In this document: piece by piece, positions 25,895 to 33,732 of the stretch | How positions within the stretch are numbered: the first letter of the stretch is position 1 | Layout of the letters: each line of letters opens with the position of its first letter | Source: Lachnospiraceae bacterium | GTDB taxonomy: Bacteria > Bacillota > Clostridia > Lachnospirales > Lachnospiraceae | DNA length: 33,732 nucleotides | Direction of reading: 5' to 3' | Assembly (NCBI GenBank): GCA_017436305.1 | Contig: JAFSDJ010000036.1 | Coordinates: 1-33,732 of the forward strand | Notes under the pieces: model-generated | What the model saw: the letters and a program-made list of their open reading frames with translations, nothing else | Database searches by the model: none | What the model was told of the DNA's origin: nothing | Position numbers and translations under genes: made by a program

Positions 25895-27258
25895 ATGGAG
25901 TTGTGGAGAGAAAAAAAGAAAATACGAGTTTTTGTAGTGTTATTAACGATGACTATATTTGTGTCGGGCAATGGAATGACAGTGCTTGCGGAGACAATTA
26001 GTGAAAATGATGTATGGAAAAGTAAGAAAGAAGCTGAGGATAGTGTCTCTGTATCAGAAAACAATAATGAAGAGTTTTATACAGAAGAAAATGGAGACAT
26101 AATAGAAGGCAGTATGATTTCGGTTTCAGATAATCAGGTAGGTGCTGTGGCAGCAGTGCCGGATGGGACACCGAAAAATCCAGTTAATGGTTTAAACGTG
26201 CAAGCTCAAAATTTTGATGCAGGATCCATTACGAATCCAAAACATAATTGTACGGGAAGCGAAGATGTAAATGATACCACCAAATGAAGCTATGTGTATT
26301 TTGGAAGTTATCCTCAGACAGAGGTAACGAATTCAAATATAAAAATTCTTATTGATTGAGCAATATCCGCAGGGCGAGGAATGGAGGCTTATGCAGGAAC
26401 TGATGTGTGGGTTAATGGTACTTTTTACAATACGGCATTTTCCGTTAAGGAACAAAATGCTATCGTTGCACAGAATGTAATAAATGAAAAACATCCTGAT
26501 TATAAAACACCAGGAGGAAACAATACTACGGACAAAGTTTTTTTATTGTCTATAAAGGAAGCTGTGAATAGTGATTATGGTTTTTGCAGTAATTCTCAGA
26601 ATAAGTGTGTAAGCCGTCAGATTCAGACAACAGGTTATGGAACAGCAAGGGGAGTAAGAGGCAATGGTAGTAATGAGAAATATGTTAATAACGTCGGGTG
26701 GTGGTTACGTTCTCCGGGCTACAGAAGTGATTTCGCAGTGCAGTTTCATCCTGGTGGTAGCATCTTAAACGGTGGGATATGGGGGATTATTGGAGTAAAG
26801 GAGTAGTTTCGATATTACATGAAAATATCTCATCAGATTTATTATTCTCCACAGATGATGGAACCAGTGGTGAAGCAGGAGAAGAAGGTGCAAAAGTCAG
26901 TGTTCCAAAAGCCAGTGTTTTAGGCGGAACCTATCATATACTACAAACATAAAGCTTTCATCCGACACAGTTGGTTCTCAAATATATTACACTACAGATG
27001 GAAGCGCTCCGAGTAAGACAAATGGAATGATATACAAAGGAAATATTATAATCAATAGTGCCACAACTTTAAAAGCTGTGGCAATAAAAGAAGGAATGTA
27101 TGATAGCGATATTATGACGGAACAATATATTATTTCATTGAATGAAAGTGGAGAAGATAGTGGAAACTACACCTTATCTCAAGGTAAAAAAGCAAGCATA
27201 TATTTATGTGTATGCCCAAAATGGTGTATACAAAAAGGTAAAAGTAACAGTAAAATAA
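25895..27258 (+). pseudogene. Array copy 1: decayed DUF6273-type secreted protein
   Basis: A degraded member of the family seen intact downstream. It begins well, with AAAAGGAG, a signal peptide (MELWREKKKIRVFVVLL...) and 'ETISEND'. It then has two in-frame TGA codons: 26285-26287, where relatives have the Trp of 'TTWSYV', and 26357-26359. An in-frame deletion of about 80 residues joins 'DVWVNGT' to 'FYNTAFS'. 'WWLRSPGYRSD' is intact, but the frame shifts near 26803 and again near 26950. A chitobiase-type segment ('IYYTTDGSAPS') follows in a third frame. A large deletion then joins 'GKKAS' to the final 'YVYAQNGVYKKVKVTVK', recoverable only after another shift. TGA is a normal stop elsewhere here, so recoding is unlikely. 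Confidence 0.88.
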
Positions 27259-27319
27259 AAGAAGAGGAAAAATGTGAAACAGAGATTGATAAGAGAAAAG
27301 CGTAAAAATCAAATTTATG

Positions 27320-27416: not shown

Positions 27417-29519
27417 ATGAGGAAAAAAGCAACAAAGCTGCAACAAATAACGCGCCTTTTATCCCTGCTTTTAACAGGTGCAATATTTATTACTACACAG
27501 GGATTTACAGTCGTGGCGCAAACCGTTAGTGACAATGAGATAATAGCAATGGAAAATGGAGAAGCCAATGCTTCCAAACCCAGTGAAGATTGTATATCAT
27601 CAAATTCCATTAGTGCAAATGCGGTACAGGCTGCAACAGAAAGCCTGTGGCTTGACCCGTTGCATCACTGTACAAACTTAGGCGCTGAAACAGACACCAC
27701 AACATGGAGTTATGTCTGGTTTGGGACCTATCCGCAGACAGAGATAACCGATAGTGAGATTACATCTGCCATTGACAGTGCCATTAAAGACGGTCTTGGT
27801 ACAGTGGCAGATGCCGGTAGTGATGTATGGGTAAATGGTGTAAAATACAGAAGAATCAGTAAAGCGGATGCTACCTTTGGAGGTCGGTTTGGTGACAATA
27901 CATATCGCTATTTTAAATGGGAAAAGATAAAATGGCGAGTACTGAAAAATGAGGGTTCCACATTGTTTGTAATGGCAGATATGGGCTTGGATTGTGAACA
28001 GTATCATAAATCTGTGGTAAAAGTTACATGGGAAACCTGTGATTTAAGGAAGTGGTTAAATGACAGCTTCTATAATGCAGCTTTTACTGCTGATGAGCAA
28101 AAGGCTGTTATTCTTCAAGATGTAGTAAATGACGATAATTGGATGACGTATGCAGACGGTGGAAATGATACGAAGGACAATGTATATTTATTGGCTATTG
28201 ACGAGGTTAGGAATCTGGATTACGGATTTTGTATTGCAACTGCTAATTTTTCCCCAAGTCGACAACTGCAGATAAGTGATTATACGGTTGCAAAAGGTTC
28301 AAGTAGAAGTGAGTGGGAGGCATATCTGGGAACTACTAATTGGTGGTTACGTTCACCCGGTTCTAGAGGTCGTGATTTAGGAGAGGTAGGTTATGCTTCT
28401 GATGCTGCTACGTGTAGCTATGTAGGTGAGGTTAATCTGGAGGGTACAGGAGTTACCTTTAATGGTTGGGCAGTTGTTCCGGTTTTACATATCGACATAA
28501 AATCGGACCAGTGGTCTGTGTCAGAAGATAACACGGAAAAAAACATTGAAACCGTACAGACACCAACAGCAAGCGTAGCAGGTGGAAGCTATAATGAAGT
28601 ACAGAATGTAACCTTATCTACTAAGACAAAAGGGGCAACCATCTACTACACCACAGATGGAAGCAAACCAAGTATAGCTAATGGCACAAAGTACAAAACT
28701 GCCATTACCATTGACAAATCACAAACATTAAAGGCAATTGCAGTAAAATCCCGCATGAAAGACAGCGAAGTTATGACAGAGCAGTATACAATTTCATTAC
28801 CGGAGAAGAAAGAGGAAGACAAAAATACAGGTGAAACCGGCAATGTTGACGATAGCGGAAGTGGAAGTGAAACCGGGAAGCAAAATGAAACTGCTACAAC
28901 AGTAGAGGAAGCAGAAAAGAAAATCACCTCTACCAATACAGACAAAGGAGACGTAACAGGCTCCAAATTTTCTTCCTTACAATTAAAAGCAACAGGAAAA
29001 AATAAATCCGTTAAGCTTACATGGAAGAAAGTAAAAGACGCAGACGGCTATATTGTTTATGGAGCAAAATGCGGAAACTCCATGAAGAAAATCAAAACCT
29101 TAAAAGGCAATAAAAAAGTAAGCTACACCCAAACGAAATTAAAAAAAGGTAAATTTTATAAATACATGGTTGTAGCATACAAAAACGTAGATGGTAAAAA
29201 ATGTACCATAGCTACATCCAAATCGGCCCATGCGGTAACAAACGGCGGAAAATACGGAAATCCAACAAAAGTAACCGTAAAATCCTCTAAAATGACTATC
29301 AAAAAGGGCAAGAAAAAGACAATCAAAGCTTCTTACACCTTGCCAAAAGGAAAGAAAGCAAGCATACATATTGCAAAATTCCGCTACGAAAGCTCTAATA
29401 CAAAGGTAGCAACAGTAAGCAAAAAAGGTGTAGTAAAAGCTAAGAAAAAAGGCACTGCCTACATCTATGTATATGCCCAGAATGGTGTTTACAAAAAAGT
29501 GAAAGTAACAGTAAAATAA
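27417..29519 (+). CDS. Array copy 2: secreted DUF6273-type protein with chitobiase-like, FN3 and Big_2-like modules
   Basis: A 700-residue secreted protein. The signal peptide spans about 1-35, followed by 'QTVSDNE' and an acidic linker. A DUF6273-like domain (about 95-360) has 'WSYVWFGTYPQTEI', 'YRYFKWEKIKWRVL', 'RKWLNDSFYNAAF' and 'WWLRSPG' (309-315). A variable stretch (316-354) precedes 'PVLHID'. Then come a chitobiase/hexosaminidase C-terminal-like module (about 381-461; 'IYYTTDGSKPS'), an acidic hinge, an FN3-like domain (about 516-608) and a very Lys-rich Big_2-like domain (about 615-700). No LPXTG, S-layer or membrane anchor is visible. ATG 27417 follows AAGGAGAG; the longer frame from 27333 lacks a ribosome site. 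Function unknown; the central domain resembles C-type-lectin-like binding domains. Confidence 0.85.
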   Translation: MRKKATKLQQITRLLSLLLTGAIFITTQGFTVVAQTVSDNEIIAMENGEANASKPSEDCISSNSISANAVQAATESLWLDPLHHCTNLGAETDTTTWSYVWFGTYPQTEITDSEITSAIDSAIKDGLGTVADAGSDVWVNGVKYRRISKADATFGGRFGDNTYRYFKWEKIKWRVLKNEGSTLFVMADMGLDCEQYHKSVVKVTWETCDLRKWLNDSFYNAAFTADEQKAVILQDVVNDDNWMTYADGGNDTKDNVYLLAIDEVRNLDYGFCIATANFSPSRQLQISDYTVAKGSSRSEWEAYLGTTNWWLRSPGSRGRDLGEVGYASDAATCSYVGEVNLEGTGVTFNGWAVVPVLHIDIKSDQWSVSEDNTEKNIETVQTPTASVAGGSYNEVQNVTLSTKTKGATIYYTTDGSKPSIANGTKYKTAITIDKSQTLKAIAVKSRMKDSEVMTEQYTISLPEKKEEDKNTGETGNVDDSGSGSETGKQNETATTVEEAEKKITSTNTDKGDVTGSKFSSLQLKATGKNKSVKLTWKKVKDADGYIVYGAKCGNSMKKIKTLKGNKKVSYTQTKLKKGKFYKYMVVAYKNVDGKKCTIATSKSAHAVTNGGKYGNPTKVTVKSSKMTIKKGKKKTIKASYTLPKGKKASIHIAKFRYESSNTKVATVSKKGVVKAKKKGTAYIYVYAQNGVYKKVKVTVK
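28362..28478 (+). other. Hypervariable segment of copy 2
   Basis: The stretch between the conserved WWLRSPG and PVLHID codons. Its protein pattern 'SDAATCSYVGEVNLEGTGV' follows the same A-A / G-x-V / G-x-x-V spacing as copies 3 and 4 but shares few residues with them. It is longer than in the other copies. Confidence 0.55.
28947..29519 (+). repeat. 3' FN3-Big module repeat (copy 2)
   Basis: This segment, from 'GDVTGSKF' to the stop, recurs at 31156-31728 and, cut by the window end, at 33448-33732. Copies 3 and 4 are nearly identical; copy 2 is clearly related but more diverged, by eye about four bases in five alike. Such long direct repeats can recombine. Confidence 0.85.
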
Positions 29520-29580
29520 CAGATTGTCTGAAATAATTGTTTTAAAACCAAATAACTTTTAACATGAACGGAGAGAGAAC

Positions 29581-31728
29581 ATGAGAACAAAAATGGAGAC
29601 AAAACCAAAAGCAATGTGGTTTTTATCAATGTTTTTAGTATTTGTAATGCTAATTACAACACAGGGATTTATGTCCGTTGCAGGGACAGTTAGTGAGAAT
29701 GAGATGACAGGAGAAAATGCAGAGCAGATAAATGATGAGCAGACAAATGAAGAACAGATAGATGTTGAGCAAACAGACGCAGAGCAACCGGAAAATCAAA
29801 GCGTTGAAACAGAGGAAGAGGGTTCAGATGCTTTACCTCAAGCAATTTCTACCAGCGAAAACAGCATACAGGCAGGCAGCGGCACTCCGGCAGACCCGGT
29901 ACATAACTGTACAAAGCAAAACGATGGTACAGATACTACCACATGGAGCTATGTGTATTTTGGAAGTTATCCCCAATCAGAGGTAACAGATACAGCCATT
30001 ATAACAGCCATTGATAGTACAATTTTGGTAGGCAATGGTACTACCGCATATGCAGGCACAGACGTATGGGTAAATGGTACAAAATACCGCAGAATCAGTA
30101 AAAGCGATACAAATAATGATGAATATTTTGATGAGGCAACAAACAACGGATATCGCTACTTTAAATGGGAGCGAATCAAGTGGAGAGTACTTGATAATAA
30201 CGGAAGCACACTGTTTGTAGTAGCAGATAAAGGGCTGGATTGTAAAAACTATAATGATGTGAAAACATATATTACATGGGAAAACAGCACCATAAGAGAA
30301 TGGCTCAATAATAGCTTTTATAATACAGCTTTTTCAAGTAATGAGCGAAATGCAATTGTTGCACAGAATGTAGTAAATGATGATAATCTTCATTATGATT
30401 CAGAAGGCGGAAATAATACTACCGATAAGGTGTATTTGTTATCAATAGATGAAGTAACCAAAGAAAGTTATGGATTTTGCAGTGAGTATGATACATATTC
30501 AGCAAGTCGCTGGATGCAGCCAAGTAATTATGCTCGTGCAAGAGGTGCATTGAAAATTGCTAGTGGTATTCAAGAAGGAAATTCTGTGTGGTGGCTGCGC
30601 TCGCCCGGCTGGGGTGCGGACGCTGCCGCGAATGTCCTTAGCCTCGGTTTCGTTAGTAGGTCTGGTCAAGGTGTCGTCAAGCGTGATGAAACGGTTTCCC
30701 CAGCTTTGCACATAAATCTGTCATCCGATATCTGGTTCATGACTGATGATGGCACCAGTGGGGATGGAGGAGGACGTATACTGACAGCATTTACGGTAGT
30801 CAAAGCAAAAACAACCTATAATCAGGGTGAAAGCTTAAACGTAGATGATTTGGAAGTAACAGCCAAGTATGATAAGGGTACAAGCAGGTCAGTTGCTGCA
30901 AATGAATACACTACGAATGCGAAGACAATTGACATGAACACCCCGGGAAAAAAAACACTGACTGTTTCTTATACAGAAAATAATATTACCAAAACAGCAG
31001 ATATTACCATTACAGTAAACAAGACAGAGACTAAGCCAAGTATACCTGGAAATAAAGAAAATCCGGAAACACCGGAAAAACCTGCATCTTCGGAAAATAC
31101 AGCATCTACTGTAGAAGCAGAGGAAGAAAAAGTCATATCCACCAATACAGACAAAGGTGACGTAGCAGGCTCAAAATTTTACAAACTCCGCTTAAAAGCA
31201 ACCGGCAAAACCAAATCCGTAAAGCTTACATGGAAGAAAGTAAAAGACGCAGACGGATACATCATTTATGGTGCAAGATGTGGACAGTCCATGAAAAAAA
31301 TCAAAACCATAATAGGTAACAAAAAAGTAACCTATACCCAGAAGAAGCTTAAAAAAGGGAAATATTACAAATACATGGTTGTGGCATACAAAACCATAGA
31401 TGGCAAAAAATATACCATCGCCACATCCAAATCAGCCCATGCAGTCACGAAGGGCGGAAAATACGGCAATCCAACAAAGGTTTCCGTAAAATCTTCCAAA
31501 ATGACAATCAAAGTGGGAAAGAAGAAAACAATCAAAGCTTCCTACACCTTACCAAAGGGCAAAAAAGCAAGTATCCATATCGCCAAATTCCGCTACGAAA
31601 GCACTAACACAAAGGTTGCAACCGTAACAAAAAAAGGCGTGGTAAAAGCGAAGAAAAAAGGAAGTGCTTATATTTATGTATACGCACAAAATGGCGTTTA
31701 CAAAAAAGTGAAAATAACAGTAAAATAA
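29581..31728 (+). CDS. Array copy 3: secreted DUF6273-type protein with Ig-like, FN3 and Big_2-like modules
   Basis: A 715-residue secreted protein. The signal peptide (about 1-38) is followed by 'GTVSENE'. An acidic linker has EQ-rich units (N-D-E-Q-T-N-E-E-Q). The DUF6273-like domain (about 120-385) includes 'WSYVYFGSYPQSEV', 'WERIKWRVLDNNGSTLFVVA' and 'VWWLRSPGWG'. A variable stretch (344-373) precedes 'PALHINLSSD'. Instead of the chitobiase-like module of copy 2 it has a Big_3-type Ig-like domain (about 400-480; 'YNQGESLNVDDLEVTAKYDK'). The FN3-like and Lys-rich Big_2-like domains then follow, nearly identical to copy 4. RBS ACGGAGAG precedes ATG 29581, 61 bases after copy 2, so the genes are probably one transcript. 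No wall anchor motif is seen. Confidence 0.86.
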   Translation: MRTKMETKPKAMWFLSMFLVFVMLITTQGFMSVAGTVSENEMTGENAEQINDEQTNEEQIDVEQTDAEQPENQSVETEEEGSDALPQAISTSENSIQAGSGTPADPVHNCTKQNDGTDTTTWSYVYFGSYPQSEVTDTAIITAIDSTILVGNGTTAYAGTDVWVNGTKYRRISKSDTNNDEYFDEATNNGYRYFKWERIKWRVLDNNGSTLFVVADKGLDCKNYNDVKTYITWENSTIREWLNNSFYNTAFSSNERNAIVAQNVVNDDNLHYDSEGGNNTTDKVYLLSIDEVTKESYGFCSEYDTYSASRWMQPSNYARARGALKIASGIQEGNSVWWLRSPGWGADAAANVLSLGFVSRSGQGVVKRDETVSPALHINLSSDIWFMTDDGTSGDGGGRILTAFTVVKAKTTYNQGESLNVDDLEVTAKYDKGTSRSVAANEYTTNAKTIDMNTPGKKTLTVSYTENNITKTADITITVNKTETKPSIPGNKENPETPEKPASSENTASTVEAEEEKVISTNTDKGDVAGSKFYKLRLKATGKTKSVKLTWKKVKDADGYIIYGARCGQSMKKIKTIIGNKKVTYTQKKLKKGKYYKYMVVAYKTIDGKKYTIATSKSAHAVTKGGKYGNPTKVSVKSSKMTIKVGKKKTIKASYTLPKGKKASIHIAKFRYESTNTKVATVTKKGVVKAKKKGSAYIYVYAQNGVYKKVKITVK
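30610..30699 (+). other. Hypervariable segment of copy 3, DGR-like codon pattern
   Basis: Thirty codons between 'WLRSPG' and 'PALHIN'. Aligned by hand with copy 4 over 22 codons, it differs at 14 first, 11 second and 8 third positions. Seventeen of 22 codons end in C or T. The stretch is GC-richer than the surrounding gene. This is what adenine-directed mutagenesis of AAY codons produces. Confidence 0.6.
31156..31728 (+). repeat. 3' FN3-Big module repeat (copy 3)
   Basis: Direct repeat of 28947-29519 and of the partial 33448-33732. The near identity with copy 4 suggests recent duplication or gene conversion. Confidence 0.85.
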
Positions 31729-31840
31729 AGAGGATGTCTGAAACAGTTGTTTTAAAGCCATGCAGACACCGAAGAAAGAATGCGTTAATAGGGGAAAAAA
31801 TTACGCTTCTAGTAATTTTTAACAAGAACGGAGAGAGAAC

Positions 31841-33732
31841 ATGAGAACAAAAGTGGAGACAAAACCAAAGGCAATGCGTTTAGTATCTTTGTTTTTAGTA
31901 TTTGTGATGCTAATTACAACACAGGGATTTACGTCTGTTGCAGGAACAGTCAGTGAGAATGAGTTGACAGGAGAAAATGCAGAGCAGATAAGTGATGAGC
32001 AGACAAATGAAAAACAGACAGATGTTGATCAAACAGGCGCAGAGCAATCGAAAGATTCAAATCAACCGGAAAATCAAAGTGCTGAAAAAGAGGAAGAAGC
32101 GGATAGTGTCAATGGGGAAAAAGAAGACGCAGATGCTTTGCCTCAAGCAATTTCTATCAGCGAAAATATCGTACAGGCAGGTAACGGCACTCCGGCAAAC
32201 CCGGTACATAACTGTACAAAACAAGACGATGGTACAGATACCACCACATGGAGCTATGTGTATTTTGGAAGTTATCCCCAAAGTGAAGTGACGGATACGG
32301 CTACTATTAATGCTATTGAGGCTGCCATAGCAAAGAATGAATCTGAAAATGAAACGTATATCGGTGAAAAAGCAGACACCGGCACAGATGTATGGGTAAA
32401 TGGTACAAAATACCGCAGAATCAGTAGATGGCAGACAGAAGAAGATGATTTTTTTGATGAAGTAACAAACAACGGTTATCGCTATTTTAAATGGGAACGA
32501 ATCAAATGGAGAGTACTTCAAAACAATGGAAGCACACTCTTTGTAGTAGCAGATAAAGGACTGGACCGTAAAGTGTATAATTACTGGGATGAAAGCATTA
32601 CATGGGAAAACTGCACCATAAGAAAATGGCTCAATAACAGCTTTTACAATACCGCATTTTCAAGTAATGAACAAAATGCAATTGTTACCCAGAATGTAGT
32701 AAATGATGATAATCCACAGTATGGTACAGAGGGTGGAAATAATACTACGGATAAGGTGTATTTATTATCAATAGATGAAGCGGCCAATGCAACTTATGGA
32801 TTTTGCAGTGATTGGAATACAGAATCAGCAAGTCGGTGGATACAACCAAGCAATTATGCTCATGTAAGAGGAGTAGGTACATTTAGTAGTTATCGGGGGA
32901 ATAAAGATACTTGCTTTTGTTGGCTACGTTCGTCCGGCAAGTATACAAATCATGCCGCGGAAATCTATCACTATGGTTACGTCTATCGATATGGCGTCTA
33001 TGTCGACAGCATTTACAGTGGCGCCGTTTTGCCGGCTTTACACATAAATCTGTCATCTGCTGCCTGGTCCATGACAGATGACGGCACCAGTGGAGATGGT
33101 GGTGAAGAACGTATAATGACAGCATTTACAGCGGTCAAAACAAAAACAACCTATAATCAGGGGGAAAGCTTAAACGTAGATGACTTGAAAGTAGCAGCAG
33201 AGTATCACACCGGAACAAGCAGGGTAATTGGTGCAAATGAATACACTACAAATGCAAAGACAATTGACATGAACACTCCGGGAACCAAAACACTGACTGT
33301 TTCCTATACGGAAAATAACATTACCAAAACAGCAAACATAACCATTGCCGTAAACAAAACACAAGCTACTCCAAGCACACCGGAAAATACCTATACTACG
33401 GTAGAGAAAGAAGAAGAAAAAGTCATATCCACCAACACGGATAAAGGTGATGTTAAAGGCTCAAAATTTTATAAACTTCGTTTAAAAGCAACCGGCAAAA
33501 CCAAATCCGTAAAGCTTACCTGGCAGAAAGTAAAAGACGCAGACGGTTACATCATTTATGGTGCAAGATGTGGCAAGTCCATGAAAAAAATCAAAACCAT
33601 AAAAGATAACAAAAAAGTAACCTATACCCAGAAAAAGCTGAAAAAAGGAAAATATTACAAATACATGGTTGTGGCATACAAAAATGTAGATGGAAAAAAA
33701 TACACTATCGCCACATCTAAATCAGCCCATGC
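31841..33732 (+). CDS. Array copy 4: secreted DUF6273-type protein (partial, runs off the window)
   Basis: An open frame of 630 codons without a stop to the window edge. The 5' leader and first codons are nearly identical to copy 3 (ACGGAGAGAGAACATGAGAA). The signal peptide is followed by 'GTVSENELTGE', then a longer acidic, Gln-rich linker. The DUF6273-like domain contains 'WSYVYFGSYPQSEV', 'YRYFKWERIKWRVL', and 'CFCWLRSSG', where copies 1-3 have a second Trp and a Pro. The variable stretch (367-397) is rich in Tyr. 'PALHINLSS' and the Ig-like module follow, then an FN3-like domain that is cut at 'TSKSAHA'. By comparison with copy 3, about 95 residues are missing. Confidence 0.87.
   Translation, partial: MRTKVETKPKAMRLVSLFLVFVMLITTQGFTSVAGTVSENELTGENAEQISDEQTNEKQTDVDQTGAEQSKDSNQPENQSAEKEEEADSVNGEKEDADALPQAISISENIVQAGNGTPANPVHNCTKQDDGTDTTTWSYVYFGSYPQSEVTDTATINAIEAAIAKNESENETYIGEKADTGTDVWVNGTKYRRISRWQTEEDDFFDEVTNNGYRYFKWERIKWRVLQNNGSTLFVVADKGLDRKVYNYWDESITWENCTIRKWLNNSFYNTAFSSNEQNAIVTQNVVNDDNPQYGTEGGNNTTDKVYLLSIDEAANATYGFCSDWNTESASRWIQPSNYAHVRGVGTFSSYRGNKDTCFCWLRSSGKYTNHAAEIYHYGYVYRYGVYVDSIYSGAVLPALHINLSSAAWSMTDDGTSGDGGEERIMTAFTAVKTKTTYNQGESLNVDDLKVAAEYHTGTSRVIGANEYTTNAKTIDMNTPGTKTLTVSYTENNITKTANITIAVNKTQATPSTPENTYTTVEKEEEKVISTNTDKGDVKGSKFYKLRLKATGKTKSVKLTWQKVKDADGYIIYGARCGKSMKKIKTIKDNKKVTYTQKKLKKGKYYKYMVVAYKNVDGKKYTIATSKSAH
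32939..33031 (+). other. Hypervariable segment of copy 4, Tyr-rich, DGR-like codon pattern
   Basis: The stretch between 'WLRSSG' and 'PALHIN'. Codons TAT, AAT, CAT, ATC, CAC, TAC, GAC and AGC dominate, almost all of the NNY type. Fixed GCC-GCG, GGT/GGC and GTC codons stand in between, at the same places as in copy 3. Confidence 0.6.
33448..33732 (+). repeat. 3' FN3-Big module repeat (copy 4, truncated by window end)
   Basis: Matches the start of the module at 31156-31728 with only scattered base differences. The array may continue beyond the window. Confidence 0.85.

Follow-up and report, generated by a model that had tools for sequence, protein, structure and literature searches.

The end of the window, by which we mean the whole 33,732-nucleotide stretch of a Lachnospiraceae genome analysed here, is occupied by a tandem array of genes for DUF6273 (PF19789) proteins (copies 1 to 4, assigned with Pfam). 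The question raised by this array is whether the short segments in which its members differ sharply were written by a diversity-generating retroelement (DGR) and, if so, where that element is to be found. DGR targets are mostly binding proteins, and a preliminary description of the DNA had proposed that the related segments of all four copies are or were such targets.

The DUF6273 array and its variable segments

DUF6273 scores above the curated cut-off in copies 2, 3 and 4 and in one piece of copy 1, the broken first member of the array, whose second open frame holds the DUF6273 match and whose third holds Fn3_assoc (Table 1). Inspection by eye shows that copy 1 is interrupted by two in-frame TGA stops followed by a frame change, and it looks like a pseudogene. 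Next to the array lie rnf genes and a gene for an M18 aminopeptidase, and the ten window genes that were scanned are chromosomal in appearance. The N-terminus of copy 3 resembles a signal sequence by eye, and its fn3-like stretch scores below the Pfam cut-off; since copy 4 is still open where the contig ends, any Big_2 part of it would lie past the contig. The signal-like N-terminus, together with the Big domains after the variable segment, suggests that copies 3 and 4 may encode secreted or wall-associated binding proteins. For the fold around the variable segment, a sequence search of the PDB found no match. An IgA protease from the gut is reported to carry an N-terminal DUF6273 domain (PMC12402451), so that the domain occurs beyond DGR targets.

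Table 1. Members of the DUF6273 array and the segments within them (window positions)
Feature	Positions	Strand	Description	Basis
Copy 1	25895..27305	+	Broken DUF6273 gene, three open frames: 25895-26287, 26381-26806, 27027-27305	ORF list
Copy 2	27417..29519	+	DUF6273, CHB_HEX_C_1/Fn3_assoc, Big_2; segment host-type, not DGR-type	Pfam; GC3
Copy 3	29581..31728	+	DUF6273 (292 aa, 29881-30756), Big_3, Big_2; 715 aa	Pfam
Copy 4	31841..33732	+	DUF6273, Big_3, fn3-like stretch; ORF open at contig end	Pfam, ORF list
Copy 3 variable region, template-homologous segment	30592..30708	+	Core 30610-30696	Ungapped match to G001 template (71/117 bases), adenine-mask tests, GC3
Copy 4 variable region, template-homologous segment	32921..33040	+	Core 32939-33028; one codon longer than in copy 3	Codon comparison with copy 3, C30, C9 and template; GC3
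IMH-like 3' end, copy 3	30700..30708	+	C where the template has A	
IMH-like 3' end, copy 4	33032..33040	+	Two bases differ from copy 3	

Over the 22 codons that start at positions 30610 and 32939, there are 14 differences between copies 3 and 4 at first codon positions, 11 at second and 8 at third, and each copy has 17 codons with C or T as their last base, exactly as had been counted by hand before. In the whole 29-codon core the difference rates at positions 1, 2 and 3 are 0.59, 0.55 and 0.41, whereas in the flanks the third position is the highest (0.17, 0.16 and 0.29 upstream; 0.12, 0.09 and 0.25 downstream). Over 35 codons from WLRS, GC3 amounts to 0.57 in copy 3 and 0.54 in copy 4, compared with 0.289 in nine other window genes, and these stretches come 6th of 681 and 2nd of 596 among the sliding windows of their respective genes. 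Such islands are as expected if template sequence overwrote the variable regions (VRs). No GC3 island was found in the segment of copy 2 (28362-28478; GC3 0.23), and the shared GC-rich frame is missing, by eye, from this segment as well as from that of copy 1 (26720-26803). Both were rejected as DGR targets, copy 2 for want of an island and copy 1 by eye for want of the frame, which confines the proposal to copies 3 and 4.

A DGR cassette in a sister genome and the adenine mask of its template

The genus was represented by six genomes, G000 to G005, of which G000 is the genome of the window. When a frame pattern derived from the variable segments was run against 61 genomes, it matched five, four of this one genus (G000, G001, G003 and G004) and one more distant. 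Searching the remaining five genomes of the genus for RVT_1 led to contig C22 of G001, where an Avd gene, a 119-base A-rich template repeat (TR) and a reverse transcriptase (RT) gene lie in a row, followed by a gene for a DUF6273 protein of 1706 residues. The Avd protein is matched by PF22296 (43.6 bits against a cut-off of 40) and by phrog_3206, 'Avd protein of DGR'. The RT carries GNQTSQ and YMDD; among solved structures its best relative is 8ub7 (E 1.4e-40), which we take to be the DGR enzyme of Bordetella phage BPP-1. Between the TR and the VR of the adjacent DUF6273 gene, 20 of 37 adenines and none of the 82 other bases are changed. With Avd, TR, RT and a VR bearing adenine-specific changes, the cassette is a DGR; it sits between asnS and asnA, both named by NCBIfam.

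An RT similar to the G001 enzyme at E <=1e-40 is present in 17 of 299 sampled genomes of the family, a relatedness by sequence that is no proof of a DGR for each. The best 80 of 107 relatives were kept. TR/VR-like pairs were seen in 56 of 88 loci, at least one of them (L127) chance-like. Six other clostridial DGR targets (L080, L082, L083, L085, L086 and L089) have a VR of the WLRS or WSRS type that lies within about the first 120 residues and is followed by 313-826 residues. A phage source of the DGR was dropped after scans that reach phages of similar sequence: the RT scan of viral contigs gave eight relatives, all at <=45% identity, none of 43 stretches was confirmed in the scan with the DUF6273 alignment, and two exact frame patterns had no matches.

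The adenine columns of the G001 TR were used as a mask (35 adenine against 52 other columns). G000 has eight DUF6273 matches, and the GC-rich frame is present in four of its DUF6273 loci, namely copies 3 and 4, one on contig C30 and one on C9. These four VRs vary at 33 of 35 adenine columns as against 23 of 52 others (Fisher p=6e-7), and the excess is seen within codon positions (17/18 versus 3/11 at position 1, 16/17 versus 4/12 at position 2). Copies 3 and 4 alone differ at 30/35 adenine and 15/52 other columns (p=1e-7), and the six pairwise tests among the four VRs, which share sequences and are not independent, give p from 1e-7 to 0.021. Set against the TR directly, the adenine bias is modest: 24/35 versus 20/52 for copy 3 (p=0.005), 26/35 versus 18/52 for C9 (p=0.0003), 16/35 versus 12/52 for C30 (p=0.02) and 17/35 versus 14/52 for copy 4 (p=0.03). 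At the 16 AAY codons of the template, 55 of 64 third bases in the four VRs are C or T (13 in copy 3, 14 in copy 4, 16 in C30 and 12 in C9), compared with 118-125 of 230 flanking third bases per copy, in agreement with the earlier suggestion of NNY codons at these sites.

The same mask holds for the other species, with a mean entropy over 12 VRs of G002 to G005 of 1.45 bits at adenine columns against 0.42 elsewhere (p=2e-12), and of 1.48 against 0.41 when two more VRs are added. The TR was compared with 26 loci, two being repeat picks of the same place. G003 C13:333830, G004 C22 and G004 C321 were set aside for having no full ungapped match (<=51/119), and 19 of 23 segments made up the adenine-bias set, those outside it being copy 2 (host-type), G001_C19a and G003_C38 (other length) and G002_C60 (a stop cuts the frame). 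Among the 19, G001_C19b is the sole VR lacking the bias (p=0.32). The two VRs on contig C55 of G002 differ from each other; the second has an indel, which puts its counts partly out of register. At the 3' end, the nine bases marked in Table 1 for copy 3, which we take by name to be an IMH and presumably to act as one, are identical in 18 of 20 complete VR rows (the exceptions are copy 4 and G001_C19b), and GCT stands in all 20 where the TR has GAT.

A host-type paralogue on contig C70 of G000 has no adenine bias against the TR in an ungapped comparison (21/35 versus 27/52, p=0.3). Compared with the four G000 VRs themselves it gives p of 0.049, 0.15, 0.3 and 0.015, for which reason pairwise bias on its own is weak evidence. 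Taken over the whole set, the differences in the G000 segments concentrate at the adenines of the G001 template, and copies 3 and 4, by following this mask, are or were DGR targets. A variable loop shaped by ordinary positive selection and recombination among paralogues, with no retrohoming, would likewise show first- and second-position changes beside flank-like third positions, as expected from diversifying selection. We regard such an origin as very improbable: a mask taken from the template of another species works within codon positions, GC-rich frame codons recur in the VRs of all six genus genomes, the host-type paralogue has neither a GC3 island nor a bias against the TR, and the adenine-only changes of the G001 TR/VR pair, in the same gene family, strongly oppose it. 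Third positions vary at 16 of the 29 columns of the four G000 VR cores, which exceeds adenine-only writing from one template; older or different templates or later drift may be the cause.

The cassette site and the history of the variable regions

The draft assembly of G000 totals 2.6 Mb, consists of 107 contigs and is 84% complete. No DGR RT was found in it: two proteins exceed the RVT_1 cut-off and both were rejected as the DGR enzyme, one being a group II maturase (TIGR04416) and the other PADLOC RT_UG26. The UG26-type RT, on contig C20 (L002, 1306-2532), matches the PADLOC model almost end to end (E 8e-161) and is a candidate defence RT, and on C70 (L001 and L030) a group II intron maturase lies directly upstream of a DUF6273 gene with a host-type segment. 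Avd was found in two of the six genus genomes, G001 and G002, and not in G000. The pattern search for a TR in G000 returned three places, all of them VRs, and the DNA search with the G001 TR, from which two G002 C4 matches were left out, returned in G000 the VRs and weak, chance-level rows only. At C56, the eighth DUF6273 locus, the best TR-like match in the contig piece is 58 of 117 bases. The preliminary description had called for an RT, an Avd gene and a template, and had held that a genome with no RT or template would speak against it. None of the three was found in the G000 draft, so formally that is the state of this draft, and all three are present in G001; the relatives explain the discrepancy. 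Present DGR activity in G000 is not supported, given that no RT, Avd or TR was found and that the non-adenine sites have diverged, while absence of the cassette is not proven by an assembly that is 84% complete and breaks at DUF6273 repeats.

RTs of G002 to G005 were judged by eye from translations. The place held by the cassette in G001 could be followed in its relatives. In G000, asnS is directly followed by asnA on one contig (NCBIfam names), and the site is closed. G002 retains a partly deleted cassette downstream of asnS (C75, L042, 9204-10035), beside a gene for a 1930-residue DUF6273 protein. It has two deletions: the Avd match stops at residue 102 where the RT match starts at 103, and residues ~125-204 of the RT are missing. 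A search of this cassette for a template found none left (best match 42/117 bases). In G005 these two genes, likewise named by NCBIfam, share a contig and are separated by other genes, and Avd was not found there. In G003 and G004 the contigs break at the site, and absence of the cassette from these two was dropped as a case of loss for this reason and because G004 has two fresh-looking VRs. They lie on contig C83 (L026, 97-2943), which begins 97 bases ahead of a 948-residue ORF with two DUF6273 segments whose VRs differ at 22/35 adenine and 2/52 other columns (p=1e-9). The predicted protein would have two surfaces of the DGR type, both derived from a single template, and G004 may well keep the element.

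The closed asnS-asnA site, together with the lack of any RT, Avd or template found in G000, makes the VRs of the window most likely orphans, and we hold it very probable that copies 3 and 4 carry orphan DGR VRs, inherited as a fixed repertoire. By the established workings of DGRs, an error-prone RT with Avd would have copied an A-rich template RNA, reading adenines as any base, and in trans the resulting cDNA would have taken the place of the segment within the DUF6273 domains of several paralogues; once the cassette was lost, the VRs would have been passed on as a fixed set, now drifting as ordinary coding sequence. The VRs would then be surface binding sites, and the element lost from G000 rather than left unassembled. 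It is possible, if doubtful, that a DGR is present and active in the species on a stretch missing from the 84% complete draft, with the VRs as live targets, as contigs C23 and C30 break off within DUF6273 genes and C9 shortly after one, where a cassette may lie, and as the four flank-grouped copies each have a different VR. Against a live element stand the closing, in G000, of the locus that holds the cassette in relatives, the failure to find a DGR RT, Avd or TR in the draft, and the 13-17 of 52 non-adenine columns at which G000 VR pairs differ, compared with 2 of 52 in the G004 C83 pair.

The timing of the writing was approached through the flanks. In a flank tree rooted on copy 2, the four VR-bearing copies of G000 form one clade (support 89) and 18 copies of other species stand apart (support 80). 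In G003 the corresponding syntenic site, recognised by its rnf genes, M18 aminopeptidase and HTH gene, holds just one DUF6273 gene, and this carries a VR of its own. From the clade and this single gene, the copies probably arose in the G000 lineage and were written afterwards, and flank gene conversion could give the same tree. Third positions of the cores differ by 0.31-0.41 between G000 VR pairs, above the downstream flank in six of six pairs and above the upstream flank in two of six. This divergence and that of the non-adenine sites mean that the last writing was not recent or that the templates differed, the G000 VRs not being the product of recent writing from one template. Of 21 VRs, only that next to the G001 RT has the two markers of the G001 TR (codon 33 base 3 and codon 35 base 1), so that the other 20 derive from other template versions or have drifted.

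The VRs could also have been acquired in finished form, through gene conversion with some other DGR target or transfer from one, no DGR ever having acted in the lineage. The lack of DGR parts found in G000 and the existence of a relative with TR and RT fit this possibility, yet four flank-grouped copies each with a different VR would need several donors, and we consider it unlikely. With orphan VRs written in place as the preferred reading, writing would have followed the gene duplications.

What has become of the written variants is illustrated by G003 C13 and G005 C24, whose VR cores encode the same protein, with 0, 0 and 4 differences at positions 1, 2 and 3 of 29 codons, compared with 35, 36 and 83 in 573 codons. 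At the gene's own rate, the probability of no change in the 58 first- and second-position sites is ~0.025; the pair was chosen after the fact, and its protein-identical VR is a hint of selection and no proof. As a tentative scheme, a lineage would amplify a secreted binding protein, the DGR would write each copy in trans, and after its loss the variants would be kept as a selected repertoire, in which the G003/G005 VR, the same in protein and different in DNA, would be a locked variant.

Relation to known DGR systems

The earlier DGR reading was right in kind and narrows to orphan, probably frozen VRs in copies 3 and 4 of G000. Among the top-listed papers of the open literature searched, without subscription papers and preprints, no report of this genus or array was found. 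DGR targets of the DUF6273 type have been published before, as have target genes left over from a DGR. A genus in which one cassette is intact, another is broken and further sites are closed, and whose VRs differ in age, opens to study the fate of hypermutated proteins after loss of the mutator, and also allows asking whether selection retains particular VR variants.

The G001 element is like known DGRs in its Avd, its A-rich TR, its RT (GNQTSQ, YMDD), its adenine-specific change and the differing 3' ends of TR and VR. G000 differs from them, with only VRs found, and these internal, with Big-type domains after them. Such an internal VR had been called unusual; it is uncommon, but the tentaclins provide a published precedent (PMC10743442). 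Tentaclins and the DGR targets of Faecalibacterium prophages (PMC10743442, PMC11792537) have their VR in DUF6273, as copies 3 and 4 do, and tentaclins have Ig-like domains after it, like the Big domains here; in models of the phage DUF6273 targets, which are built as C-type lectins, the VR forms a surface hairpin (PMC10743442). These are phage genes, whereas the array has rnf and M18 genes as neighbours and the G001 cassette is flanked by asnS and asnA. Multiple VRs are given for 271 of 948 DGRs (PMC6642488), one template serving several targets as proposed here, although the G000 targets are spread over several contigs and their template was not found; a large survey states that it would miss VRs away from an RT (PMC8144416). 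A further parallel to G000 is Treponema denticola, in which target genes persist in isolates without RT and TR (PMC4891356), isolates being compared there and species-level genomes of one genus here, with a tandem array and a protein-identical VR in two species.
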